IMG/VR virus record: IMGVR_UViG_3300010885_006318
Coordinates: 1-20,052 of that record
Origin: a virus
Length of the DNA: 20,052 nt
Reading direction: 5' to 3' (one strand)
Within the stretch, counting starts at the first letter, position 1; each line of letters begins with the position of its first letter. Made by a program: the position numbers and the translations under genes. Under the pieces are notes generated by a model that searched no databases, was not told where the DNA came from, and saw only the letters and a list, made by a program, of their open reading frames with translations. Positions 287 through 20,052 of the stretch are shown here, one piece after another.

Positions 287-2927
<2,641 letters not shown>

Positions 2928-2928
2928 A

Positions 2929-2946
2929 ATATATATATATATATAT
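2929..2946. repeat. (AT)9 dinucleotide run ending in the start codon of the next gene
   Basis: Nine AT units fill nearly the whole 17-base gap after the large terminase stop, and the last unit supplies the A and T of the following ATG. A shorter, imperfect AT stretch precedes the methyltransferase start (about 291-306). Such an unpaired, SD-free leader fits initiation as seen in Bacteroidota. Slippage here would change leader length but not the reading frame. Confidence 0.8.
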
Positions 2947-3697
2947 GAGTAATGTAACATTTAATTTTAACGGTAATGATTATAACTTACCTGATTATTT
3001 ATCCATAGAGGATTATGTAAAGATTTTTAAAGTTAAGGATTTGTTTGAGGATGAATATCTTCACGCAAAGGTTATTAACTTATTAACCAGTTGTCCGATG
3101 AATGACTTATTGGAAGCTGAACATCATAAGGTTGAGTTTCTATCCACATCAATCTTCGCCATGGTCCCACGACCACCATATAATTTAGTAGATACATTTG
3201 AATTGAATGGTGTTAAGTACGGGTATCTACCATCATATAAGGAAATTACGTTTGGTGAGTTTGCTGACCTTGATACATTATTAACAAAGAAACCAGAGGA
3301 GGTGATGGATTATCTACATATTATCGCAGCCATCATGTATAGACCAATCATAAGTTCCAAATCCAAACACAACTTTAAGATTGAGAAGTATAATCAAGAG
3401 ACCCTCAACGATAGGGCGGAACTCTTCAAAAAGAAATTAGATGTCAAGTTTGCGTTAGGTGGACAGTTTTTTTTTACCAACTTCGGAAAGAGGTTATCCA
3501 ATTATACCCGTCTATCTTTGACACAGAAGATCAGGAGAGAATGGGAGATGACGAAATGGATAGTAAAGAATTGGAGTCTAGTATGGAAATTACTTTCGAA
3601 AAAAGATTCGGATGGTACGTCGTCCTTAATAGATTATCAGATAACAAAATCAATGAACACGATAAAATCCTTGACAAAAAAATTATTGAAGCGTTAA
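2945..3697 (+). CDS. Tail-assembly-chaperone-like protein, 0-frame product
   Basis: The unshifted frame encodes 250 residues. Residues 1-177 are acidic to neutral and well-formed: 'FNFNGNDYNLPDYLSIEDYVKI', then 'LNGVKYGYLPSYKEITFGEF', 'DLDTLLTKKPEE' and 'LHIIAAIMYRPI', with no signal peptide or convincing membrane helix. After a run of nine T (3467-3475) the character changes: the last 73 residues are basic and unusually Trp/Ser/Lys-rich. From the same point the -1 frame reads as normal acidic/basic protein. I recognise the N-terminal region as a family of Bacteroidota phage proteins of unclear function. The two-frame organisation resembles the G/GT tail assembly chaperones, which guide tail-tube polymerisation around the tape measure. 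The functional name is inference, since the tape measure is not adjacent. Confidence 0.7.
   Translation: MSNVTFNFNGNDYNLPDYLSIEDYVKIFKVKDLFEDEYLHAKVINLLTSCPMNDLLEAEHHKVEFLSTSIFAMVPRPPYNLVDTFELNGVKYGYLPSYKEITFGEFADLDTLLTKKPEEVMDYLHIIAAIMYRPIISSKSKHNFKIEKYNQETLNDRAELFKKKLDVKFALGGQFFFTNFGKRLSNYTRLSLTQKIRREWEMTKWIVKNWSLVWKLLSKKDSDGTSSLIDYQITKSMNTIKSLTKKLLKR
3467..3475 (+). other. Putative -1 ribosomal frameshift site (run of nine T)
   Basis: The bases 3469-3475 form a U UUU UUU heptamer in register with the 0 frame (codons at 3470 and 3473), the X XXY YYZ form used for -1 slippage. Slipping back one base moves reading into a frame that stays open for 99 codons to TAA at 3772-3774. The fusion is predicted to be 276 residues. 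A G-rich AGGTGGA (3457-3463) lies just upstream and could act as an SD-like stimulator, though many Bacteroidota ribosomes use such signals poorly. An undercalled T in assembly (true run of ten) would give the same frame change, so this is not proven. Confidence 0.6.
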
Positions 3698-3774
3698 ATC
3701 AATTGACCTACTTAATAGGTTTGGACGAAGAACAAATAAAACAACAAAAGAAGGCCAACGGATATCTCGCATAA
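3475..3774 (+). CDS. -1 frame extension of the tail-assembly-chaperone-like gene
   Basis: This 99-codon segment is open in the -1 frame directly from the T run to TAA at 3772-3774. Its only internal ATG that could serve as a separate start is at 3541, giving 77 residues. The sequence looks genuinely coding: balanced acidic and basic residues, 'EITFEKRFGWYVVLNRLSDN', 'KKIIEALNQLTYLIGLDEEQ', and a lysine-rich end. It resembles the C-terminal half of phage proteins I know as one continuous polypeptide, with a conserved 'GWY' and a following helix. I therefore read it as the second half of the upstream gene, reached by frameshifting, rather than an independent small gene. Independent translation from 3541 is possible but has no visible ribosome-binding site. 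Confidence 0.65.
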   Translation, partial: YQLRKEVIQLYPSIFDTEDQERMGDDEMDSKELESSMEITFEKRFGWYVVLNRLSDNKINEHDKILDKKIIEALNQLTYLIGLDEEQIKQQKKANGYLA

Positions 3775-3820: not shown

Positions 3821-4825
3821 ATGTTAAATTATAAACAACTAGTATCGTATTTTGGTCAGATAGCCTACCATCATGAACAAATAAATTCATTTGGTGTGGG
3901 TGATTTTGAACAATTAACCAACGATGTCATTACCAAACAGGAACCAAAATATACAAGAATGTATGTTATACCTGAGAATGTTGAGTTAAAACAAAACAAT
4001 ATCCATTATAGTTTTTCAATTATAATAATGGACAAGGTAGAAGAAGATTTATCCAACCTTAAGGAAGTGATGAGTGATACTTTGGAAATATGTACTGATA
4101 TATGGACCATATTCTGGCAGTCATATACATCTGAACAAGGTGATTTTAGTAAGATTGTTGTGGGTGATTACGCACCGGATATACATCCGTTTACAGAAAG
4201 ATTTGAAACAATACTTGCAGGATGGACATTAAACATGAGATTGTCCGTACCATTTGATTACAACTCTTGTAATTTACCAATGGAAGCTTTTAGTTTCCCA
4301 CAAGATGAATCTTTTTCATCTTACATACAAATATTAGATGATTGGCAACAATTCGCTGAGAACCATAAACAATTAAGAAGTTATGGTTTCGGTGATGGTA
4401 GTCAATTAACAAACGATATAATAACAAAGAAGGAACCTGAATATCCTCGTATATATTTTATACCTGATACAACAAAATTAAATGAGAATCATTATCACAT
4501 AACATGGAATGTTATTGTTTGTGATAAAATAGAGGAAGACCAATCAAATCAAATTGAGGTCTTATCAGATTGTCTTGAGATATGTAAGGATTTCTATTCT
4601 AAAGCGTACTTATCAGATTACGATGTTGAGTGGGACGCAGTATTAAACCCATGGTTGGAGGAGACAGAATCTACTCTTGCTGGATGGTCGTTTAATATTT
4701 CCGTTCAACAAAAATTTGATTATAATAGATGTGTTCTTCCAACAACCAACTTTAGTCCTAACTTAACATGGGAAGAGGTTAATGAGTTATGGAGAAAAAT
4801 AAAAGAACAATGGGATAATGTTTAA
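3821..4825 (+). CDS. Tandem-duplicated tail-terminator-like protein
   Basis: The 334 residues contain two copies of one domain. Copy 1 spans about residues 24-153 and copy 2 about 188-307. Shared landmarks in order are: F/YGxGDxxQLTND (24 and 188), TKxEPxYxR (38 and 202), a DKxEEDxSN stretch (71 and 235), SDxLEI (85 and 249), LAGWxxN (132 and 286), and FDYNxCxLP (145 and 299). Copy 2 is about ten residues shorter. A single domain of roughly 130-150 residues with an alpha/beta profile and a 'GW' near its end resembles phage tail terminator/completion proteins, which cap the tail tube and join it to the head. That role is inference. The last 20 residues are a separate charged helix. The gene follows an A/T leader and has no SD. 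Confidence 0.6.
   Translation: MLNYKQLVSYFGQIAYHHEQINSFGVGDFEQLTNDVITKQEPKYTRMYVIPENVELKQNNIHYSFSIIIMDKVEEDLSNLKEVMSDTLEICTDIWTIFWQSYTSEQGDFSKIVVGDYAPDIHPFTERFETILAGWTLNMRLSVPFDYNSCNLPMEAFSFPQDESFSSYIQILDDWQQFAENHKQLRSYGFGDGSQLTNDIITKKEPEYPRIYFIPDTTKLNENHYHITWNVIVCDKIEEDQSNQIEVLSDCLEICKDFYSKAYLSDYDVEWDAVLNPWLEETESTLAGWSFNISVQQKFDYNRCVLPTTNFSPNLTWEEVNELWRKIKEQWDNV
3890..4279 (+). repeat. Domain copy 1 of the duplicated protein
   Basis: This encodes residues 24-153, from FGVGDFEQLTND to FDYNSCNLP. It aligns by eye with 4382-4741 at the protein level. The DNA of the two copies has diverged, so the duplication is not recent. Confidence 0.8.
4382..4741 (+). repeat. Domain copy 2 of the duplicated protein
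   Basis: This encodes residues 188-307, from YGFGDGSQLTND to FDYNRCVLP. It shares the order of landmarks with copy 1 but has a shorter segment before LAGW. Confidence 0.8.
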
Positions 4826-4842
4826 AAAAATATTAATATAAA

Positions 4843-7725
4843 ATGGGTCAATTAAATAATCTTTACGTTAGTAGTTCATTTCAAGGTCTTTTAAAAATGA
4901 CCGATAGTACTAATGGTTTAACTAACACACTACAAACCGTACAAACAGGTGACGGTGATAATTCACCTTTACAGATGAGTTTAACTGAGGTAAACATCTC
5001 AGGTTCATTCACTGTTAATGGTTCACCAATTACAGGAAGTGCGGTTGATACTGGTTCTTTCGCAACCACAGGTTCAAACACTTTTATTGGTAGCCAAATA
5101 ATTGAAGGGAATTTATCTTTCCCAAGTAATTCATTTGTATCAACCGACAATGTATCAGGTGCGTTGTACTTCTCATCATTAAATGGTGGAACATTATATA
5201 TTAACGCTGATGGTGGTGAGGGTAATGTGAATGTTGGTCATAATGGATGGACTGGTAAATTAAATGTAACAGGTTCATTAGGTGTAACTAATATACAAGG
5301 TACAGGAAGTTTATTCTTACAACCAAATCAATCTGACGCAAGATATTTGGAAGTATATAATACATCACCAACTGATACACACATCACCGCAAGTGGTGGT
5401 CAAATATTCTTGGGTAATGATGTAACATATGTTAAGGTTGATAATTACGGTTCAGTTAAACGTATTGATATTGTAGCAGAGAATGATATAAATGTTTCAG
5501 GTTCAATGAGCGTAACAGGTTCAATAGATATAACAGGACAATATCTTGTTAATGGTGTTGCGTTTAGTGGAGGTACAAATGGAACGTCTGGTACTTCAGG
5601 AACAAGTGGTGATTCAGGAAGTAGTGGTAGTTCAGGTACGAGCGGTACATCAGGTACAAGTGGAAGTTCAGGTACATCAGGAAGTAGTGGCAGTAGTGGT
5701 ACATCAGGTGTTGCTGGTTCATCGGGAACAAGTGGAACTTCAGGAGATAGTGGTAGTTCAGGAACTTCAGGAACAAGTGGAACCGCAGGTACATCAGGTA
5801 CAAGTGGAGATAGTTTATTTGCACTAACAGGTTCAGTATGGAACACAACTAATAACGTTGGTGTTACAGGTTCTTTATACGCTGATGGTAATTTATTAAA
5901 TTTATCACTTAACACAACAGTTCAACCATCATTATATTTAACAAGTTCACAAGCGGGACAAGTTAATATAATTAAAGGTTGGAGTGAAAATCCAGCAGCA
6001 AGTGGACCTGGTGCAACACAAGCAAACTATACAGGTTCATTAAGAATCACAGGTTCAAATAACATAGTATCATTACCACAATTAAGAGCCACAGGTAATG
6101 GTGGTGGTGTAGACCAACAAGGTTATATTTCAGGTTCAGATAATACATTAACATCTAATGGTGGTGGAATTTATTTAAACACAGGTTCATTATTATTCCC
6201 TAAAACAACAAACAACTATGTAGGTGCTAACGCAAATATATTAATGAACTTTACCACATCGTCTTTATCGGGTGGTCATCCAATTTTTCAAAATAATACA
6301 TTAAACGCAGGAAACATTACAATTAATAGTAATAGTGGTTCTATTCAAGCTATGGCAGCAAACTTATTGAATGGTGGTAGTATTACATCAACACAAAACT
6401 TTGTAACAAACACAAGACCATCAATATCAACAAATTTAATTAATGGTACTAGTGTTACATTAAATCATATCAGTAGTTCAATCAACTATTCAAGTAACTT
6501 TAATAACTCACCTATTACAGTTAATAACCACGTAAGTAGTTCAAATATTACTAATAACAACGTTACTCTTAATAATAATACATTTTTGGGTGGAGCAGTT
6601 GGAACAGGTCATAACATATATGTATCAGGTTCACAATCATCAAACGTAGCAAGATCATTTAACAATAACTTAATTGGTGGTAATAATAATATTATATCAT
6701 CATCATTTGTTTCATCATCAAATTCAAACTTAACTTCAACCGTAATATTTGGTAGTAACTTATCAGTGTCCGCATCAAATACATCAACAACCGCAGGTGG
6801 TTCAGCATTCTTTGGTAGATTTAATGATACAGGTTCATTATCATTATCACAAGATATAGTTTTCGCAGTAGGAACGGGTACCGCAACATCAACAAGAAGA
6901 ACAGGTTTATCAATTGATAGTGGTTCAAACACAATAATATCTGGTTCATTAACAACAATAGGAACATCAATAGTAAGTAGTTCAAACGTAAATACATCAG
7001 ATAGAACATTTGTTATTCACTCAGGTTCAATGAGAATGTATAATGAATCAGGTTCGATTAGAATTGCGGATGGTACAAACCAACCACAGTTATTCTTTAA
7101 CCCAGCAAGAAAAATAGGTTTCTTCTTAGGTCAATCTAATATGGACCAGACAGATACACAATTTGGTATCACGTCAGGATCAACTGACAACTATACAATG
7201 GGTGGTAACTTTAACAACTTTAGAACAGGTTCAAACAACTTGATGTTAGGTGTTGGTAATATCAGTATTAGGTCAGGTTCTAATAACGTAATTCTCGCAA
7301 AGGCATCAAGTTTCACAACAGGTTCTAATAACTTAATATTAGGTTCTTTACAAGGTATTGATGAAGCACAAGATTATTTCAATGTACAGTTACCAAGTAC
7401 TAGTCAACCAATTATGTTTAAGAGTGGTAGTGCACCTTTAACTATATCAGGTTCATTTGCTGTAACAGGTAATGTGTTATTCGCATCAGGTTCAGATAAA
7501 ACAATGGGAACATTTGTTCTTAATGGTGGAAACCCTGGTACTGCAACAGTATCAAATAGTTTGGTTTCAGCAACAAGTTTAATATTCTTAACCAAACAAA
7601 CAAATACTAATAGTGGAAATGGAACTGTAAGTGTAACATCAAAAGGTGGTGGAACATTTAGTATAACATCAGACCATAATGGAGACGCAGATACGGTAGC
7701 ATACTTAATTATAAACCCATCATAA
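4843..7725 (+). CDS. Long fibre-like structural protein with collagen-like and YadA-like repeats
   Basis: This protein has 960 residues, no cysteine, and is dominated by Gly, Ser, Thr and Asn. The N-terminal 240 residues contain repeated short strands ending in 'GS' (NISGSF, NVTGSLGV, SVTGSI). Residues 244-324 are 27 uninterrupted Gly-X-Y triplets, mostly GTS and GSS, with no proline. The region from about 330 to 790 is Asn/Ser-rich and beta-helix-like. Residues 795-834 carry three 'GSNN' repeats (at 796, 812 and 827) about 15 apart, like the head repeats of YadA-type trimeric adhesins. The final 73 residues form a separate compact beta domain (FVLNGGNPGTATVSN to VAYLIINPS) resembling C-terminal domains of phage fibre or decoration proteins. 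A trimeric, elongated, surface-exposed tail or capsid fibre is the best reading. The ligand cannot be deduced. Confidence 0.75.
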   Translation: MGQLNNLYVSSSFQGLLKMTDSTNGLTNTLQTVQTGDGDNSPLQMSLTEVNISGSFTVNGSPITGSAVDTGSFATTGSNTFIGSQIIEGNLSFPSNSFVSTDNVSGALYFSSLNGGTLYINADGGEGNVNVGHNGWTGKLNVTGSLGVTNIQGTGSLFLQPNQSDARYLEVYNTSPTDTHITASGGQIFLGNDVTYVKVDNYGSVKRIDIVAENDINVSGSMSVTGSIDITGQYLVNGVAFSGGTNGTSGTSGTSGDSGSSGSSGTSGTSGTSGSSGTSGSSGSSGTSGVAGSSGTSGTSGDSGSSGTSGTSGTAGTSGTSGDSLFALTGSVWNTTNNVGVTGSLYADGNLLNLSLNTTVQPSLYLTSSQAGQVNIIKGWSENPAASGPGATQANYTGSLRITGSNNIVSLPQLRATGNGGGVDQQGYISGSDNTLTSNGGGIYLNTGSLLFPKTTNNYVGANANILMNFTTSSLSGGHPIFQNNTLNAGNITINSNSGSIQAMAANLLNGGSITSTQNFVTNTRPSISTNLINGTSVTLNHISSSINYSSNFNNSPITVNNHVSSSNITNNNVTLNNNTFLGGAVGTGHNIYVSGSQSSNVARSFNNNLIGGNNNIISSSFVSSSNSNLTSTVIFGSNLSVSASNTSTTAGGSAFFGRFNDTGSLSLSQDIVFAVGTGTATSTRRTGLSIDSGSNTIISGSLTTIGTSIVSSSNVNTSDRTFVIHSGSMRMYNESGSIRIADGTNQPQLFFNPARKIGFFLGQSNMDQTDTQFGITSGSTDNYTMGGNFNNFRTGSNNLMLGVGNISIRSGSNNVILAKASSFTTGSNNLILGSLQGIDEAQDYFNVQLPSTSQPIMFKSGSAPLTISGSFAVTGNVLFASGSDKTMGTFVLNGGNPGTATVSNSLVSATSLIFLTKQTNTNSGNGTVSVTSKGGGTFSITSDHNGDADTVAYLIINPS
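5572..5814 (+). repeat. 27 Gly-X-Y triplets without proline (collagen-like)
   Basis: Every third codon is glycine (GGT or GGA). X is Thr, Ser, Asp or Val, and Y is almost always Ser. The serine codons switch between TCN and AGY, which no single base change can do, and glycine and threonine codons also vary. The repeat is therefore maintained at protein level rather than being a fresh DNA expansion. Confidence 0.95.
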
Positions 7726-9832: not shown

Positions 9833-12800
9833 ATGTCACAACAACAAACAACATTAAGAGTACAGACAAATATTCCAGGTTCAATATCAGGTCAAACTGA
9901 GCAATTAACCTTGGACATTTATAGTAGTATACCATTATCAATTAATAAATCTTTTGCAGAGTTAGGAGATATAGGAAAAAGAAATTCAGATTTTTCTGTA
10001 GGAGTTTTATTACCAGCATCAAAAACAAATAACACATTCTTTGAAAGTTATTTTAACGTAGATACTGTTGGATATTATTTTAACGCAACTAAGCGTGTAC
10101 CATGTTGGATATTGATAAATGATGAACCATACTTTACAGGGTACATGAAATTAAATAAAATCAATGTTCTTAATTCAAAAGTGGAATATGATGTTACTTT
10201 ATTTTCAACTGTGGCAGATTTATACGGTACCATTGGTAATAATTTATTAAAAGATTTAGATTTTTCTGATTCTGATTTTGAATTTAACCATGAGTTTAGT
10301 TTAAATAATGTTACAGAGGCGTTCAACTACACAAACTTCGCAAACAATAGTGAAAAACCATATCTATATTTCTATCCAATTGTTCATAATGGGTATCTAT
10401 ATACGGGTGATACTGTTAACTTTTCAGGTGGAACAATACTTGAAAGAACGAGATTATATACTTCAACAGCTCCCCTTAATTCTTATGCCTCTTTGGCAGC
10501 AGCATATGCGGCAGGTGTTCAACAATTTAGAATTAATAGTCCAACACAAGGACCTTATGATAATCAATTAAAACCAGCATTAAGTGTTTGGGGATTATTA
10601 CAATTGATATTTAAAACTCATGGGTATCAAATATCCTCAGACTTTTTCAATACACCATGGATGAAGAGTTTATACATGTATGGTTATTTTAGTTCTGAAG
10701 CAACTAAGTTCTCATTTAAAGTAAATTCAATTCAAACATTACCTTTAGAAGGTGTGGATGTTTTCTTTTTAGATTTAAATGAAAAACAATATGCAATTGT
10801 TTGTAAACTTGGGACAGGTATCCCTTGTTTTTGTTCAAATGATATTAATATCAGAATGAATTATCTAAACTATACATTTGATTCAACAATTCCATATGGT
10901 ACATCAGGTTTAACATTTGATTTGGGTTCAACATTTCTTACTGGTGAATCTTTAAGTACAGCAACTTCAAGTGGTCCATTATTGTATCTTCCTGTGGCTG
11001 TTGGTAGTAGTGTTAATTTTGTGGATGGTGATTTTGTTGATTTTAATTTTGTTATAGACGAAAATATTAAACAGATAGACATACTATCATCTGTGGCCAA
11101 GAAGTTCAATTTAGTCCTTGTTCCTGACCCTTATGAACCATCTGTGATTCGTATTGAACCATATGATTTTTTCATAGGTAGTGGTACAGTTCATAACTGG
11201 TCTGATAAGATTAGTTTTGACAAAGGATTTACCGTTGAGCCAGCGTTAAACTTTATTGAAAGTCAAATAACATTTACAGACGCTGAAGATAATGATGAAG
11301 GTAATAAAGAATTTAAAGGTAATACCAATCGTATATATGGTATTAATAATTTTTATGGTCCAACATCATTTAAATCTAATGTAAAAAAGATTGAAACAAT
11401 ATTTGGACCTGAGATAATTCGTAAATGGGATACCTCTGGTACCACAAATAATGGTAATATTAGTCTACCATTAGGTATAAATTACGTTGGTTCAAGTAGT
11501 GAACAGACAGATCAGACAACTTCAAAGGTAAGTTGGGTATATAAAGGTGTTAAAACTAAACCTAAATTGATGTTTTGGTTGGGTTGTTTCAATCCATTCT
11601 TAGACATTGTGGGTGAAAACTATGACGCAACTAACTTTTATAAGACATATAATACATATGTTTCTAATACATCAGGTTCAACATATACACAATTTGACCG
11701 TATTCCTGTGATTAGTCATACAATGCCTATGGGACTTGCGGACCAAAACAAGATTAATAACGATAGTTTATGTCTTTTATTTAATTCAGAGTTTCCAACG
11801 GATACAATTGGTGTAGAAACATTCAACACATATACAGAAAACGACGCATATTCAACATTCTATCAAAATAGAATTACTAATTTATATAATCCTAATACAA
11901 GGGTATTGACAGGTAACTTTGATTTAAGTTATGCTGATGTAAAATATCTAAAACCTGAAGACGCAATTAAGATTAATGAACAATATTTTGTTGTATCCAA
12001 AATATCTGAATTTAATTTAACTAATAGAGAATTAACCAAGGTTGAATTAATTCAATTTAATGGGGATGTTAATCAATATCCAACAAGATACTTCATGTAT
12101 GATTATTGTGATGGTTTAAATAACTGTACATTCAAATTTAAGACCGATTTTACGAACCCAAATATACTGGACACTAATTATGGTTGGTCAGTATATTACG
12201 ATCACTCTGTGGGGTCTTTAACGGGTCAAACAAGTGGTTTTACATCTTCATTCAAGTTTGTAATAAACTTCTCTCAGGAAGTCTATTGTCCTTATAGTAT
12301 GTATGAGGTTGATGAGGATACTTACAACTCAACAGGATCAGATTGGAGTAATGATACATTACACAATTATATATATAATGAACAGTACGGACCTTTCCAA
12401 TATAACATGCCAACCTTTTGGATGAATAGTGGTTCAACAAGACAAGGTACAAACTTATTTAATAACTGTTCAGAATTTTATAGTACAGTATCAACATGGG
12501 GTGTGTTGACTGGCTCATCCATTAACTACGGTCAATGTTTGGTTCCAACTCCTACACCTACTCCAACTCCAACGCCTACTTCAAGTCCAACTCCTACTCC
12601 GACTCAAACACCAACATCAACACCAACTCCTACTCCTACTCCTACACCATTAGTTGGAGGTGAAATAATTTTATTATCAAATACACCACAAGAAGGTCAA
12701 AGTATAATGAAATCCACTAATAATGGTTTAGATTTTAGTGATATATATGGATTTACTGGAACTACGGAACCATATATATTATCATTAGATTCATCAGGTA

Positions 12801-13660
12801 AATACATAATCGTAACTACTAATAATACAGCAACCAGTACTAATGATAGAATATATCAATCAAGTGATAGTGGAGCAACATTTACACAGGTTGGTTCTTA
12901 TGGTATGAGTTCTGCCGATTTTGCCACAACATCAATGTCAAGAAATGGACAATATAGATTAATTACTTATGATTCAACTAATTTTATATTTTCATCTGAT
13001 TATGGTTCTAATTATAATAATTTAACGGGTACAAGTATTAGTGACCCTTATGTTAAAGGAAATTTAACATTAGATGGTAGTACAATATATTTAGCGGGAA
13101 GTTCAAAAGTTATAAAATCAACAAATTCAGGTTCAACTTGGACAACCTTAACGACCTTTCCATCTATGACAGGTACTTCAATTATAAATGAATTTTCAAT
13201 TTCAAGTGATGGTCAATATATTGGATTATTATTAAATTATTCTTATTTATATGTTTCATCTAATTATGGAACAACATGGGCTTTAGAAAATATAAAAGAT
13301 TTATATTCTTTATACTTTTTCAAAATGGCAATCAATGAAACTGGTCAATTTTGGTATTTGATGGCTGAAAGTAAATTATATAAATCAAGTGATTATGCTG
13401 ATTCATTTAATTTAATATTAAGCGGTTCTACAAATTATAGTTTTACCGATAGATTTGATGTGGTAGCAACAAATGGTTCTGGTAGTAAAATTAATGTGGC
13501 AATAAAAAGAAAGGTAGCACCTTCTTTCCCTAATAATTTTATTTATACAGTATTATATTCAACAAATGGAGGTACTTCATGGAATGTTTCAAATTATTTT
13601 AGATATAAAGGATTATCAGAATTTTATATTGGTGATATAACAATGAACCCATCAACATAA
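9833..13660 (+). CDS. Tail protein with Pro-Thr linker and C-terminal Asp-box beta-propeller
   Basis: This 1275-residue protein has three parts. Residues 1 to about 780 form a large conserved-looking tail region. Its N-terminus (LDIYSSIPLSINKSFAELGD, then NSDFSVGVLLPASKTNNTFF, then KRVPCWI) matches a Bacteroidota phage tail family I recognise. A cysteine-containing beta domain follows (about 780-903), then a Pro-Thr linker at 905-939. The rest is a propeller with seven Asp-box motifs (SxDxGxxW/F type) starting at 961, 1010, 1054, 1096, 1142, 1185 and 1243, about 45 residues apart. Box 6 (SSDYADSF) lacks the glycine. Such propellers occur in sialidases and other glycan-binding proteins. I see no sialidase catalytic set, so binding rather than cleavage is more likely. 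The design suggests a tail-anchored protein with a flexibly displayed receptor-binding head. Confidence 0.75.
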   Translation: MSQQQTTLRVQTNIPGSISGQTEQLTLDIYSSIPLSINKSFAELGDIGKRNSDFSVGVLLPASKTNNTFFESYFNVDTVGYYFNATKRVPCWILINDEPYFTGYMKLNKINVLNSKVEYDVTLFSTVADLYGTIGNNLLKDLDFSDSDFEFNHEFSLNNVTEAFNYTNFANNSEKPYLYFYPIVHNGYLYTGDTVNFSGGTILERTRLYTSTAPLNSYASLAAAYAAGVQQFRINSPTQGPYDNQLKPALSVWGLLQLIFKTHGYQISSDFFNTPWMKSLYMYGYFSSEATKFSFKVNSIQTLPLEGVDVFFLDLNEKQYAIVCKLGTGIPCFCSNDINIRMNYLNYTFDSTIPYGTSGLTFDLGSTFLTGESLSTATSSGPLLYLPVAVGSSVNFVDGDFVDFNFVIDENIKQIDILSSVAKKFNLVLVPDPYEPSVIRIEPYDFFIGSGTVHNWSDKISFDKGFTVEPALNFIESQITFTDAEDNDEGNKEFKGNTNRIYGINNFYGPTSFKSNVKKIETIFGPEIIRKWDTSGTTNNGNISLPLGINYVGSSSEQTDQTTSKVSWVYKGVKTKPKLMFWLGCFNPFLDIVGENYDATNFYKTYNTYVSNTSGSTYTQFDRIPVISHTMPMGLADQNKINNDSLCLLFNSEFPTDTIGVETFNTYTENDAYSTFYQNRITNLYNPNTRVLTGNFDLSYADVKYLKPEDAIKINEQYFVVSKISEFNLTNRELTKVELIQFNGDVNQYPTRYFMYDYCDGLNNCTFKFKTDFTNPNILDTNYGWSVYYDHSVGSLTGQTSGFTSSFKFVINFSQEVYCPYSMYEVDEDTYNSTGSDWSNDTLHNYIYNEQYGPFQYNMPTFWMNSGSTRQGTNLFNNCSEFYSTVSTWGVLTGSSINYGQCLVPTPTPTPTPTPTSSPTPTPTQTPTSTPTPTPTPTPLVGGEIILLSNTPQEGQSIMKSTNNGLDFSDIYGFTGTTEPYILSLDSSGKYIIVTTNNTATSTNDRIYQSSDSGATFTQVGSYGMSSADFATTSMSRNGQYRLITYDSTNFIFSSDYGSNYNNLTGTSISDPYVKGNLTLDGSTIYLAGSSKVIKSTNSGSTWTTLTTFPSMTGTSIINEFSISSDGQYIGLLLNYSYLYVSSNYGTTWALENIKDLYSLYFFKMAINETGQFWYLMAESKLYKSSDYADSFNLILSGSTNYSFTDRFDVVATNGSGSKINVAIKRKVAPSFPNNFIYTVLYSTNGGTSWNVSNYFRYKGLSEFYIGDITMNPST
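12545..12649 (+). repeat. Pro-Thr linker, residues 905-939 of the tail/propeller protein
   Basis: These 35 codons encode alternating Pro-Thr with SS, QT and ST interruptions. Codons for both residues vary (CCA/CCT/CCG and ACT/ACA/ACG). It separates the tail domain from the propeller and would act as a stiff, extended spacer. Confidence 0.9.
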
Positions 13661-15272: not shown

Positions 15273-16280
15273 ATGGGAAGAAAGTATATAAAACAAATTG
15301 ATAATCAAAATTTCGTATATCCAAATTACGATTTAACTGAATATGATACAGAGATTATTCATGATATTAATGAAAATAGTGTAAGTGGAACGGTAGTTAG
15401 TTTAAGCGCAACAACTATAAGTTATTCAGCATTAACCTTTAGTTTAGGTTATACATGGTCAAAAAATAATGCTGAAATATTCTTAAGACAAAGTGGTAAT
15501 GTATCTATATTCACACTTCATATGATGGCGGCAGGTCAAGAATATTTTAAACCATGGAGAACGATAAATTCACAAAGTAGCTCATCAACAGGTTCAACAT
15601 CTTTTTCAGGAACGATTGCGGGAATTACTGTATTACCATCAGACTTTGGTTTATCCCAATTTAGTAATGGAACATATTATTTTGAAGTTAGATTTATTGG
15701 AAAAAGAGCGGTCTATCCCATATGTCAAAATATTGTAATAAGTACTATTACACCACCAGTAACTCCGACTCCAACACCAGTTACGCCAACACCGACACCA
15801 GGTCCACCTACACCAACTCCGACACCAACGGTATATCAAAGTGGAGCAACATTAAACGTAACAGATACTGGTTGGATTAAATATGATAGTCAAACAAATG
15901 GTGATGATTATTATGTATTTGTATCCACAACAGGAACTTATACCATAACAGAATGTGCAATATGTAGTTCAATTACACCAGGTTTCCCATTTGCGGACGT
16001 AGCATCGTTTACAATAACCAATTGTGGAACAACATGTAGTGGTTTACCACCAACTCCAACACCAACTCCAACTCCAACACCAGGACCTTGTGAATCAACA
16101 TCATGGATTATTGATAACACTTCAAATGGATACGAAGTCTATTGGAGTGGTTTAGATTGTGAAAATAGTTCTGTGGGTGGAACAATTATGGCATACTCAC
16201 AAACACTTACCGGATGTGTTAAAGACGGAACATTAAGTTATACAGGATTCCCAAATGTATCAATAGCAGGAATTTGTTAA
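15273..16280 (+). CDS. Modular surface protein with two Pro-Thr linkers
   Basis: This protein of 335 residues has three beta-rich domains. Domain A is about residues 1-160, and its stretch 'FTLHMMAAGQEYFKPWRTI' sits in a jelly-roll-like strand pattern. A Pro-Thr linker (161-186) follows, then domain B (187-258), a second linker (259-272) and domain C (273-335). Cysteines cluster after the linkers (C228, C231, C251, C255, C273, C296, C315, C335), and the chain ends in GIC. No known fold can be named with confidence. No signal peptide is present, as expected for virion proteins. The position between the propeller gene and the tape measure, and the shared linker style with the protein at 9833, suggest a tail-associated binding or decoration protein. 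Confidence 0.6.
   Translation: MGRKYIKQIDNQNFVYPNYDLTEYDTEIIHDINENSVSGTVVSLSATTISYSALTFSLGYTWSKNNAEIFLRQSGNVSIFTLHMMAAGQEYFKPWRTINSQSSSSTGSTSFSGTIAGITVLPSDFGLSQFSNGTYYFEVRFIGKRAVYPICQNIVISTITPPVTPTPTPVTPTPTPGPPTPTPTPTVYQSGATLNVTDTGWIKYDSQTNGDDYYVFVSTTGTYTITECAICSSITPGFPFADVASFTITNCGTTCSGLPPTPTPTPTPTPGPCESTSWIIDNTSNGYEVYWSGLDCENSSVGGTIMAYSQTLTGCVKDGTLSYTGFPNVSIAGIC
15753..15830 (+). repeat. Pro-Thr linker 1 in the modular surface protein
   Basis: This encodes residues 161-186, alternating Pro-Thr interrupted by Val and Gly-Pro. It separates domains A and B. Confidence 0.9.
16047..16088 (+). repeat. Pro-Thr linker 2 in the modular surface protein
   Basis: This encodes residues 259-272, Pro followed by Pro-Thr units ending in GP. 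It separates domains B and C. Confidence 0.9.
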
Positions 16281-16292
16281 AAAAAATAGAAT

Positions 16293-19241
16293 ATGGCCAC
16301 AAAAGATATAAATTTTGATATTAAGGTTAACGGTAAACAATTAGACCTAGCAAAAATATCATTCAAAGATTTTGATAAGGTAGTTAAAGAAGCCAAGAAA
16401 GACTTACAAGCACTACCATTAAATGACCCTCGTTATAAGGTCCTTAACGCTGAGATTAAGGCGGCAGATAAGGCATGGAAAGAGGCAAGAAAATCCGTTG
16501 GTGATTTTGATAATGAATTGAAGAATGGTGAAAATGATGTTAAATCATATAGAGCACAGATTGCTGAATTAACTAAAGCACAAGTAGCATTAGAGGAACA
16601 AGGAAAGGAAAACTCACAACAATACGCAGATAATGAAAAGAAGATTAAATCGTTAAGAGATGCTCAAGAAAGATTAGTTAGAAGTACTCAAGATTTAGAC
16701 GATACCTTAGCACAAATACCTGGTCCAATTGGAATGATTGGTCAGGGTTTACAAACATTTGAAAGTGTTTCACAAAACGCAACTTCAGCGTTCAAATCTT
16801 TGGGTTTAGGATTTAGTTCATTCGATAAAATAGTAAAAACCAGTTTAGTTGGTTTCTTAGTAGGTTTATTGGTTACTTTAGTATCGGCAGTAATGGACGC
16901 AGCCAAATCATTTAAACCACTTCAAAACGCGTTCGCCGCGGTAGGAGACGCAGTTGGCGCCTTATTCAACGCATTAAAACCAGTTACCGACTTTATATTA
17001 AATGTAGTTGTTGGGGCACTTAATATATTGGCAGGAGCAATCAATGCTGTAGCGTCAGCGTTTGGTGGAGTTAATAATGGAGCAAAACAAATGTCTCTTG
17101 AATTAGAAAGGTCAATAGATAGACAAAAGAAGACATTAGACAATTATTCATCTTTTTTATCTGAACATTATAGAGGTTTATTAGAATTACAACAAAAATA
17201 TAATGAAAAAAGAAAGGCAGTATTAGATGATGAGAAAATGTCGGTAGACGATAAAAATACTGAAATACTTGAATTAGACGCATTATATTACATTGAAAAG
17301 GATTTATTACAGAAGAAATATGATAAAATCAAAAGAGATAGAGATATTGAATTAACAAAATTAGATAAAGAAAATACATTAAAAGGTATTGATAATGAAC
17401 GTTATACACAAAAACAAACATTAGAAATACAAAAGGTAACAGAAGAAGAGTTAGCAAATAGTGAGATTAAGGGAGCAAATGGTAGGATTATTAGAATGAT
17501 GGCTTTACAAGAACAAATTCAAGCCATAGCAAACCAAGGTTCAGACGAAGAAAGGAAAAGAAGAGCAGAAACAATAGCAGCATTAAATCAATCAATTAAC
17601 GATGAAAAAGAAAACGTTAAATATTTACAGGATCAAAAAGTTAAAATTAAAGCATCAAGTAATGCCGAATTACAAAAATTAGATAGACAATTCAGAAGAG
17701 AAGATACTGCGGCAATAATTGAGAGAAGTAATCAAATATTAGAATTAAGTACCGAACTTCTTAAAAATGAAGAAGCACGTAATCTTCAAAAAGCCACTTT
17801 CGCAATTAATACATTAAAAGAACAACATAGAAAGGAATTAGAAGAAATAAGACTTGCTGGTGGTACAGAATTAAAATTAAAAGAGAAACAGGCGGCAGAA
17901 ATGGCTGTGGCGGTAGAAAATGAAAGAAAACAAGAACTTCAATATGCCGCATGGATAATGCAACAAAAAATAAATGAAGAAAATAGAAACTTAAGAGAAG
18001 AACTTTCAAACAGTAAAGATTTTTATCAAAGAAAACGTGATTTAGCAACTTTAGAATTAGAAAAAGATTTTAAACTTGCTGATGGTAATTACGATAAAGA
18101 AGAAGAGGCAAGAACACAACAATGGGAGAAAATACTTGCCATAGACAAAGAAGAATTAGGTAATATTAGAAGTAATCTTGAATTAGAATATGATGGTATG
18201 TACCAAGTTTCCGCTGAGGCATATGACAAATTAAGGGACATTGAGAACGCAAGATACGAAGAACAAAAAAGAGGAAACGAACAGAATTATGAATTTATGG
18301 AGGCGTTAGCAAAACAACACGCCAAGAACATGAACATGATTGATGTATCCGAACTTAATACAATCGCATCACTATTGGAAAGAAGAGCGGAAACAGAGAA
18401 GAAATTGTATGGTCAAATGTTTAGAGACCTTGAAGATGCTGAAAACTTATCTTACGCGGCAAGAATTAAAGCGGCAGGAGATAACGCAGCGGAAATAGAG
18501 ATAATTGAAAGAGAACATACAAAAAATTTAAAGGATTTACAGAATCAAAAAATTCAAGCATACGCAGGTGTGGCAACCGCAATGATGGATTCTCTGGCAA
18601 ATTTAACTAGTGCAATTGGAGCCTTCTATGAGTTTGAATCTCAAAATACAGAAAACTCCATGGAGGATAGGAAGAAGGCGTTTGAACAAAACAAAAAGTA
18701 TCAAATTGCAACGGCAGCACTATCGGCAGCATCAGGTATTATTCAAATATTAACTCAACCATCGACTTTACCTTCACCATTTGATTGGATTGTTAAGATA
18801 GCAAACGCAGCGGCGTTAGGTATCATGACGGCAGTACAAATCAGTAAGATTAAATCAACTGAATTTAACGCAAGTGGAGGTAGTGGTGGAAAACAACAAG
18901 GAAATACATTAGGTAGAAACTACGGTGATGGTGGTATGATTGACGGACCATCTCATAAATCAGCAGCAGGTGGTGTTATGATTAACGCTGAAGGTGGTGA
19001 GGCAGTAATGACAAGAGGAGCTGTATCCATGTTTGGTCCGATGTTGTCAGCAATGAACCAATATGGTGGTGGAGCATCGTTTATGCCAGGAGCAGCGGGG
19101 TCATCAAGATTTGATAATCCAAGTGTTCAAAATGTGGCACAAGATAGACAACCATTAGTTATGAAGACATATGTAGTGTCAAGTGACATGAAGAGTGAAA
19201 TGGAAAAACAAGCCCGTCTTAAGGACTTAAGTACATTATAA
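16293..19241 (+). CDS. Tail tape measure protein
   Basis: This 982-residue protein sets tail length and is threaded through the tail tube. Residues 1-140 are helical and charged. 'QIPGPIGMIGQGL' at 141-153 is typical of this group. Two hydrophobic segments at about 184-201 and 233-257 could enter the host membrane during DNA ejection. A very long Lys/Glu/Gln-rich coiled coil runs from about 268 to 760. After an Ala-rich helix (about 790-860) the C-terminus has 'GDGGMIDGPSHKSAAGG' and 'NAEGGEAVMTRGAVSMFGP', a signature of phage tape measures. At about 1.5 angstrom per residue the length would suggest a tail near 145 nm, if the whole chain measures. No lysozyme or peptidase domain is visible. 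The gene starts 13 bases after the previous stop without an SD. Confidence 0.88.
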   Translation: MATKDINFDIKVNGKQLDLAKISFKDFDKVVKEAKKDLQALPLNDPRYKVLNAEIKAADKAWKEARKSVGDFDNELKNGENDVKSYRAQIAELTKAQVALEEQGKENSQQYADNEKKIKSLRDAQERLVRSTQDLDDTLAQIPGPIGMIGQGLQTFESVSQNATSAFKSLGLGFSSFDKIVKTSLVGFLVGLLVTLVSAVMDAAKSFKPLQNAFAAVGDAVGALFNALKPVTDFILNVVVGALNILAGAINAVASAFGGVNNGAKQMSLELERSIDRQKKTLDNYSSFLSEHYRGLLELQQKYNEKRKAVLDDEKMSVDDKNTEILELDALYYIEKDLLQKKYDKIKRDRDIELTKLDKENTLKGIDNERYTQKQTLEIQKVTEEELANSEIKGANGRIIRMMALQEQIQAIANQGSDEERKRRAETIAALNQSINDEKENVKYLQDQKVKIKASSNAELQKLDRQFRREDTAAIIERSNQILELSTELLKNEEARNLQKATFAINTLKEQHRKELEEIRLAGGTELKLKEKQAAEMAVAVENERKQELQYAAWIMQQKINEENRNLREELSNSKDFYQRKRDLATLELEKDFKLADGNYDKEEEARTQQWEKILAIDKEELGNIRSNLELEYDGMYQVSAEAYDKLRDIENARYEEQKRGNEQNYEFMEALAKQHAKNMNMIDVSELNTIASLLERRAETEKKLYGQMFRDLEDAENLSYAARIKAAGDNAAEIEIIEREHTKNLKDLQNQKIQAYAGVATAMMDSLANLTSAIGAFYEFESQNTENSMEDRKKAFEQNKKYQIATAALSAASGIIQILTQPSTLPSPFDWIVKIANAAALGIMTAVQISKIKSTEFNASGGSGGKQQGNTLGRNYGDGGMIDGPSHKSAAGGVMINAEGGEAVMTRGAVSMFGPMLSAMNQYGGGASFMPGAAGSSRFDNPSVQNVAQDRQPLVMKTYVVSSDMKSEMEKQARLKDLSTL

Positions 19242-19268: not shown

Positions 19269-20052
19269 TGATAAGAAAAGACAAAGTTTTTGAACTTAAA
19301 ATAGAAGAAGATGATGAATTATCTGGAATTGATAGTATTTCCCTTGTTGACGAACCAGCAATTGAAATTAATTGGATGTTCTTTAACAAAGTTAAACCTC
19401 AAGAATTTCACATTCCTGAAGGAGAAGATAAAATCTATTTGGAAAAGTTCTTAGATAAAGGACAGAATGAAGAAGAATTATTAAACGATGGTTGGGAAGT
19501 TTACAAAACCGAATATAACAATAAAGAAAACTTTATTGACGCAAATCCAAACGCACCATCATTTGAGGATACTGACCAATATCTAATTAGATACAAATAT
19601 ATCCTTAATCCTAAGGCACCAGGTTCTCCTATCAAAGAAACAACAAGAGATTTTTGTAGAGACCTTGTGGTAAAGAATTGGGTATTTCGTATTGAAGATA
19701 TTGAGAATATTACCAACGATGAGGGTTCACCAGCAATGGTATGGAGAGGTGGATATAATTGTCGTCATTTGTGGTCTAAAATCACTTATAGAAGAGGAAC
19801 TGATATAAACATCAAATCATCTGATAGAAAGGGAAGAGTGGACACAGGATTGGATATAAACGTATTAGGATACCCTCAACCTAAAACAACGGTTGATGAA
19901 CATCCATCATTCATATTTACAAAAGAAGGATTTGAAGTAGGTGTACCACATTATACAGAAGATGGTAAATTGTACGAAGGTCCTACACATAAAGACGCTG
20001 ATGGTAGATTAATGACAGGAGCTGTTCATACAGAAGATAGTGTTTATTTATA
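19268..20052 (+). CDS. Head-associated structural protein, N-terminal part (3' end outside window)
   Basis: The frame opens at ATG 19268 and stays open to the window edge, giving 261 complete codons. The N-terminus 'LSGIDSISLVDEPAIEINW' (18-36) resembles the start of XkdF-like or prohead-related proteins of tailed phages. Next comes an acidic stretch (FLDKGQNEEELLNDGW), then 'TTRDFCRDLVVKNWVFRIED' (residues about 132-151) and 'GGYNCRHLW' (about 168-176). That Cys...CRHxW layout recalls the end of MuF-like minor head domains. The last visible part is 'DGKLYEGPTHKDADGRLMTG'. The protein is probably a head or head-maturation component. I see no protease catalytic residues in this part, and the rest is missing. 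It lies after the tape measure, which is unusual for a head gene. Confidence 0.55.
   Translation, partial: MIRKDKVFELKIEEDDELSGIDSISLVDEPAIEINWMFFNKVKPQEFHIPEGEDKIYLEKFLDKGQNEEELLNDGWEVYKTEYNNKENFIDANPNAPSFEDTDQYLIRYKYILNPKAPGSPIKETTRDFCRDLVVKNWVFRIEDIENITNDEGSPAMVWRGGYNCRHLWSKITYRRGTDINIKSSDRKGRVDTGLDINVLGYPQPKTTVDEHPSFIFTKEGFEVGVPHYTEDGKLYEGPTHKDADGRLMTGAVHTEDSVYL

Follow-up and report, generated by a model that had tools for sequence, protein, structure and literature searches.

A putative −1 slippage that exchanges the C-terminus of a tail-assembly-chaperone-like phage protein over a dual-coded overlap

The frameshift gene and its neighbours

The window analysed here is the whole of the virus record IMGVR_UViG_3300010885_006318 in IMG/VR, 20,052 bases from an uncultured phage. 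A plus-strand reading frame at 2945-3697 (the 0 frame) encodes 250 amino acids and reads a run of nine T (T9) at 3467-3475 as FFF. A T_TTT_TTT heptamer lies in the phase of this frame at 3469-3475. The −1 frame runs open from 3475 through 99 codons to its stop at 3772-3774, and the 223 bases from 3475 to 3697 are open in both frames together. The run, the heptamer, both frames and the overlap had been located in a preliminary description of this DNA, and recomputation returned exactly the same positions.

The shared N-terminal domain (2945-3475, plus strand) has 177 codons and ends with the FFF of the T run. It is modelled by AF2 with pLDDT values mostly of 76-91 per block of ten residues, the first block reaching 64. 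Past the run, the 0 frame continues as a C-terminal tail of 73 codons and a stop (3476-3697, plus strand) that is basic, rich in Trp and predicted, at low confidence, to be helical. The −1 frame gives a tail of 99 codons and a stop (3475-3774, plus strand), in which an acidic linker is followed by a GWY core and helices. Among 21 aligned members, the −1 tail has invariant residues at Y1, R4, P12, F15, G46, W47, N52, H62, E72 and N75. The tail charges in the locus that matches the window (L065) are +12 and −7, opposite in sign.

The T9 run at 3467-3475 is the sole run of seven or more T in the window. Such a run is not rare, as a first-order Markov model expects 0.53 T9 per window of this composition. 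Any T9 holds an in-phase heptamer in every phase, and the run by itself is therefore no proof of frameshifting.

The gene adjoins the terminase large subunit gene, terL (1593-2927, plus strand), which is directly upstream in 129 of the 132 window-family loci with more than 600 nt of upstream sequence. The downstream neighbour (3821-4825, plus strand) is of unknown function and contains, by eye, two similar repeat-like domain copies. It has a homologue in all 125 loci with more than 1000 nt downstream, and no family matched its product at a useful score. A tape-measure-like protein is encoded about 12.5 kb downstream of the frameshift gene (16293-19241, plus strand). It was recognized by the look of its sequence, which is long and coiled-coil-like with a hydrophobic stretch; PHROGs and Pfam gave no match to it. 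Elsewhere in the window, 4843-7725, 9833-13660 and 15273-16280 encode proteins that look structural and contain GTSGTSG or TPTPTP stretches of low complexity, and the product of 4843-7725 matches tail-fibre PHROGs. An open-ended frame at 19268-20050 matches a PHROGs portal protein with its residues 92-190 (E 1e-6), corresponding to 423-524 of a profile 560 long.

Conservation of the slip run and entry into the −1 frame

Relatives were gathered in six IMG/VR scans with the whole protein, the N domain or the −1 domain, which yielded several hundred loci. The best 80 were taken per scan (in four of the scans, the best 80 of 339, 273, 295 and 318), and N-domain and −1-domain profiles were then placed on every locus. 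Since many loci share contigs or are near-identical, distinct 260-nt junctions were counted. Only loci in which both domains matched enter the count; a C-domain match was lacking in 8 of 356 sequences. Among the matches listed, the C-domain lies in the −1 frame in 151 of 153 distinct junctions, and all 151 carry T_TTT_TTT at the end of the shared domain. The run has nine T in 126 of these regular junctions, ten in 16 and seven in 9. In one of the two irregular junctions (L064, 3311-3586) the N domain is broken or rearranged; in the other (L093) the T9 is intact and the N-domain match is shifted out of place, the probable cause being an indel.

The preliminary description had held that homologues encoding both segments in one frame, or reads with a tenth T producing one continuous gene, would speak against frameshifting. 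The N domain and C-domain share a frame in none of the 153 distinct junctions. Runs of ten T do occur, in 16 of the 151, and there too the −1 frame carries the C-domain. A homopolymer sequencing error was rejected as the source of the frame change because many assemblies agree.

An X XXY YYZ heptamer stands in the 0-frame phase in 151/151 junctions of the window family and in 46/46 of a second family described below. This phase is automatic in the 142 window-family junctions with nine or ten T, and the test of phase rests on the nine with seven. These T7 junctions represent at least four changes on the tree. Their first codon is ACT in six cases and TCT, AGT or CGT in one each, and in all nine the T in its third place and the next six T are retained. 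The first codon varies yet keeps its last T, so the amino acid is free and the last T is not. It is the conservation of the run, not its mere presence, that goes beyond chance in these alignments.

Both frames remain long throughout the family. The 0 frame is open for 60-100 codons past the run in 147/147 complete cases (commonest lengths 68, 73 and 86), and the other four run off their contigs. The third frame is shut after a median of 14 codons and a maximum of 33. Both long frames are kept in all 54 representatives sharing less than 80% nucleotide identity.

Conservation of the −1 segment begins with its first codons and no start precedes it, which leaves entry from the 0 frame, at the run, as the only way in. 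There is no ATG, GTG or TTG between the preceding −1-frame stop and the run in any of the 151 junctions, nor an ATG within the first 15 codons of the −1 frame. The idea that no frameshift takes place and that an internal start makes the −1 tail a gene of its own, as the annotation of gp39 in Nonlabens phage P12024S as a separate CDS would have it, was rejected on these grounds and is hardly tenable. Internal ATG codons do exist, the first of them at codon index 21 or 22 in 81 of the 151, but they come after a reading that is already open and conserved from the run, with R4, P12 and F15 invariant in the 21 aligned members. The conserved run and the −1 C-domain entered there, both evident from sequence evolution, thus strongly support the programmed −1 frameshifting, or an equivalent slippage, of the preliminary description, and likewise its two predicted products sharing 177 residues. 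The same two proteins would arise if RNA polymerase slipped on the T9 and added a U, so that the −1 form was translated from an altered mRNA. Transcriptional slippage at A/T runs is an established phenomenon, and the run has nine or ten T in 142 of the 151 junctions and in all 46 of the second family, though seven would be enough for ribosomes. Coding may explain this length, as the run encodes FFF in the window family and in most of the second family a hydrophobic NTT codon, FF and TAT across the run. The nine junctions with seven T only, reached through at least four changes and all in the ribosomal phase, favour slipping by the ribosome; the polymerase alternative is kept as an unlikely one.

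Elements that might stimulate ribosomal slipping were faint. No stimulatory RNA structure was consistent among the 40 of 54 representatives that were folded. The mean folding z was −0.55 in the first 60 nt (9/40 below −1.5) and −0.37 in a stretch 200 nt further on. Hairpins are likewise absent from P2-like relatives (PMC3091744). A Shine-Dalgarno-like match (5-6 of 6 to AGGAGG) stands upstream of the run in 37/142 junctions as against 7/142 further upstream, a mild excess.

Selection on the two readings of the overlap

The preliminary description considered the 0-frame continuation to be less selected than the −1 frame. This view fails: stop avoidance, suppression of silent change and the choice of codons at Trp positions each indicate selection on the 0 frame. 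With the −1 protein held fixed and synonymous codons drawn from the local usage, the openness of the 0 frame had P of 5e-5 to 0.02 in 21/21 representatives. Permuting the segment's own synonymous codons gave P <=0.05 in 15/21 and P >0.05 in 6/21. Chance openness of the 0 frame was rejected by these tests.

Silent changes in the −1 frame were counted along a tree by parsimony, with the N domain setting the scale. For 142 of the 151 junctions, on a tree built from the N domain only, the silent rate was 0.95 in the N domain, 0.59 in the overlap and 1.02 after the 0-frame stop, the last value coming from 114 sequences with an early stop. The contrasts had p=1.4e-16 and 5e-7; these p-values treat site groups as independent, and per-column tests agree. 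In a set of 103 sequences the corresponding rates were 0.96, 0.55 and 0.99. Suppression persists where the third base can neither make nor remove a 0-frame stop (0.58 in the 103 sequences and 0.64 in the 142, both significant). It is present in all four clades tested apart, those of 15 or more members, at 0.52-0.74; 24 of the 142 sequences fall in smaller clades. The weakest clade is that of the window itself (0.74, p=0.0026). The small first tests were weaker. One put the silent observed/expected ratio at 0.86 inside the overlap and at 1.12 beyond it. A second compared 8 sites, at 0.81, with the N domain (p=0.046) and with 4 tail sites at 0.86 (p=0.57). Loci L063 and L064 and those with fewer than 320 nt after the run were left out of one of the analyses. 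Both marks of dual coding, silent-site suppression and a second frame open beyond chance, were thus found.

Codon choice at Trp positions points the same way. At one column the 0 frame has Trp in 137/142 sequences while the −1 residue is M in 77, V in 34 and L in 26. All the V codons there are GTG and all the L codons TTG or CTG, as against 252/1222 and 468/2404, about a fifth each, in the N domain taken as background. Trp columns of the 0 frame are spaced seven apart, with Trp in 117/141, 137/142 and 91/142 sequences. The window departs from this spacing: its 0-frame protein has Trp at 200, 205, 210 and 214, and Val at 207. Conservation is slightly higher for the 0 frame within the linker (0.33 vs 0.27), and the reverse holds elsewhere, the −1 tail being the more conserved frame in three of the four stretches compared. 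Judged by its evolution, selection acts on both frames, and both alternative endings encoded by the same ~220 bases are kept by it.

A similar arrangement is found in a second family. Distant members of the window family led by tblastn to Nonlabens phage P12024S/L at E about 0.7, a relation then supported by profile comparison and PHROGs. The N domain of P12024S gp38 is homologous to that of the window gene (hhalign Prob 92.7), and gp38 has a T9 slip run and the same place right after terL. Its −1 tail is colinear, with a WSWY core (WGWY in relatives), a likeness that is weak taken alone (Prob 16, E 0.0016). Unlike the window gene, its 0 frame stops 25 codons past the run, and the locus is annotated as two hypothetical proteins. 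In PHROGs, gp38 belongs to 32199 and gp39 to 38404, both of unknown function. The N domain of the window family matches phrog_32199 weakly in 9/21 members (best E 6e-5) and phrog_9575 in 1/21; both are unnamed. The annotated gp39 (L210 9351-9518, 55 aa) lies inside the −1 continuation of gp38 after the T9 and is likely part of an unannotated frameshift product.

Across some 95 N-domain residues the two families are no more than about 25-31% identical. The second family was sampled as 63 IMG/VR relatives plus P12024S, with one partial locus (L422) dropped. It was found by six peptide patterns, one of which, FFYHLGND, spans the T run, so that the conservation there is partly ascertainment: the run has nine T in 45 and ten in 1 of the 46 distinct junctions. 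Among the 42 complete cases the 0 frame extends for 55-84 codons in 38, 25 in three and 16 in one; in the other four junctions it runs off. Eleven representatives were compared with background codons. The nine long ones had P of 0.0003-0.018, and permutation gave P <=0.05 in 4/9. The 0-frame lengths of P12024S and one relative (L362) are as by chance (P 0.12-0.22 with background codons). In the 38 long junctions, with the first 10 codons excluded, the silent rate was 0.39 vs 0.93 outside; when codons with T in second place were excluded as well, it was 0.40 vs 0.94. By these measures long dual coding is common to two deep families and absent in the kin of P12024S. The long 0-frame tail is missing from P12024S and its close kin and is therefore not essential in every lineage.

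Possible function and the exchange of the C-terminus

Frameshifted tail chaperones are textbook knowledge, and in them the slip is usually followed by a 0-frame stop within tens of bases. In a pair of the gpG/gpGT type both forms are needed in a fixed ratio, bind the tape measure and the tube protein, and are absent from virions. In lambda, a −1 frameshift near the end of the gene yields a common N-terminal part with or without a second domain (PMC5009743). The window gene resembles lambda in the shared N-terminal part and in the two forms made through a −1 frameshift. It differs in that lambda adds T to a nearly complete G, whereas here 73 residues of the 0 frame are replaced, the overlap is dual-coding and the genomic place is another. 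The HK97 gp13 pair and P2 E/E+E' also have an annotated −1 frameshift, and the P2 slip site, TTTTTTG, is T-rich as here (PMC3091744). These two pairs lie close before the tape-measure gene, unlike the window gene. In P2 the frameshift site at 19685 is about 20 nt from the E stop at 19705, as against 222 nt in the window. In the figures given for PRFect, the mean distance from slip to stop is 26 nt for SEA-PHAGES genes and 169 nt for a mixed viral set (PMC10885494). Nearness of the slip site to the 0-frame stop is thus usual, not defining, and the distance is 222 nt in the window and 60-100 codons in 147 relatives. The nearest concept to a swapped, overlapping C-terminus is arterivirus nsp2TF, in which a −2/−1 frameshift into a wholly overlapping frame swaps in an alternative C-terminal part (PMC5009743). 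That system differs in being part of an RNA virus polyprotein and in having its frameshift stimulated by a viral protein, and no relation by descent is known. No description of a dual-coded, exchanged tail in a gene of this kind was found in searches of open-access literature.

Structure comparison gives a hint of function. AF2 modelled the N domain of the 0-frame protein fairly confidently and the helical tail poorly. The top PDB match of the N domain in Foldseek is the HK97 tail assembly chaperone gp13 (2OB9), and it is weak (E 0.66). VIA-align placed 2OB9 at Z 4.0 over 64 residues with an rmsd of 2.8, in a list confined to folds that Foldseek had found, in which unrelated chains reach Z 3.0-4.1. 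Comparison with HK97 gp13 by sequence and profile was negative (hhalign Prob 0.2; a negative control was run). Pfam had no matching family, a sequence search of solved structures returned nothing, and PHROGs gave nothing for the −1 tail. The −1 tail alone is helical at low confidence in its model (pLDDT 61), which had no BFVD match at E 0.001 and no named relative there. The 0-frame model had 37 BFVD matches at E <=0.001, mostly uncharacterized proteins of 161-285 residues from uncultured phages; they include P12024S gp38 (E 2.9e-8) and, at a low TM, a protein of Flavobacterium phage 6H (E 5e-6). No named phage matched the window protein in tblastn at E 0.01, and a pattern-based scan of one genome each of 84,980 species found no relative. 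A host among the Flavobacteriia is suggested, through P12024S and Flavobacterium phage 6H only.

The 6H match (R9VW65, 191 aa) was equated with gp10 (L359 10352-10927, minus strand) by length only. This gene ends soon past a T_TTT_TTC, and some 305 unannotated bases, largely open in −1, precede gp09. It is possibly another unannotated frameshift, though a −1 stop stands just after the site. The tape measure gene of 6H, gp04, is some 2.6 kb downstream of gp10.

In our assessment, at a probability of about 0.7, the window gene makes two proteins from one start, with a C-terminus that is swapped, not extended, by −1 slippage, an overlap that is dual-coded, and a product like a tail assembly chaperone. 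An ordinary lambda-like frameshift, in which nothing but the −1 extension counts and composition plus the constraint of the −1 protein keep the 0 frame open, would account for the greater conservation of the −1 tail in most of the compared stretches and for the short 0 frames of P12024S and L362. It is very unlikely in view of the avoidance of stops in the 0 frame, the suppression of silent change that ends with that frame and holds where stops cannot arise, the Trp kept through codon choice, and the slightly higher conservation of the 0 frame in the linker. The tail-chaperone likeness proposed in the preliminary description stays plausible through the weak HK97 gp13 fold match and the analogy; the negative sequence comparison and the position beside terL weigh on the other side. 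The chaperone role is thus our best guess, not a finding. Chaperone pairs lie between the tail tube and tape measure genes, and this gene does not; its place beside terL speaks against a standard pair. A dual-tail frameshift protein of another kind, such as a head-tail, baseplate or packaging-linked factor, is less probable but deserves serious thought. The constant terL neighbour argues for it, as do the position beside a terminase in 35/43 second-family loci (with the P12024S query; 3/43 with the window terminase as query) and a weak match to a T4-like baseplate hub in BFVD (rank 43, E 0.03). Against it, the top PDB match in Foldseek is a chaperone, and an unsystematic look at the ORF list of the window brought up no second −1 pair directly ahead of the tape-measure-like gene.

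If the chaperone-like exchange is correct, most ribosomes would read through the T9 and make the 250-residue protein, in which the 177 shared residues carry the basic, Trp-rich tail of 73. Some would shift backwards by one base on U_UUU_UUU, giving a protein of 276 residues, in which the shared part would be followed by the 99-residue tail with its acidic linker and GWY helical core. We infer the 0-frame form to be the major one and the two to be made in a certain ratio; two chaperone genes have measured frameshifting of 6 and 7% (PMC3711429). About 70 codons after the slip are dual-coding on this view, and amino-acid selection acts on both readings. In the manner of gpG/gpGT, coating of the tape measure protein would fall to the major form and recruitment of the tail tube subunit to the minor one.

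More broadly, these genes probably form a widespread phage superfamily in which U_UUU_UUU slippage acts as a C-terminal switch, two unrelated tails, each selected in its own right, are read from the same 55-100 codons, and a chaperone pair exchanges its effector domain. In a bolder form of this switch, the oppositely charged tails would contact each other in a mixed assembly. Gene callers may name one tail of such genes and lose the other. The exchange makes the role of gpG's own C-terminus testable. With more than 100 distinct junctions that have two long readings, in two families, these phages offer a natural laboratory for the evolution of overlapping genes in bacterial viruses.
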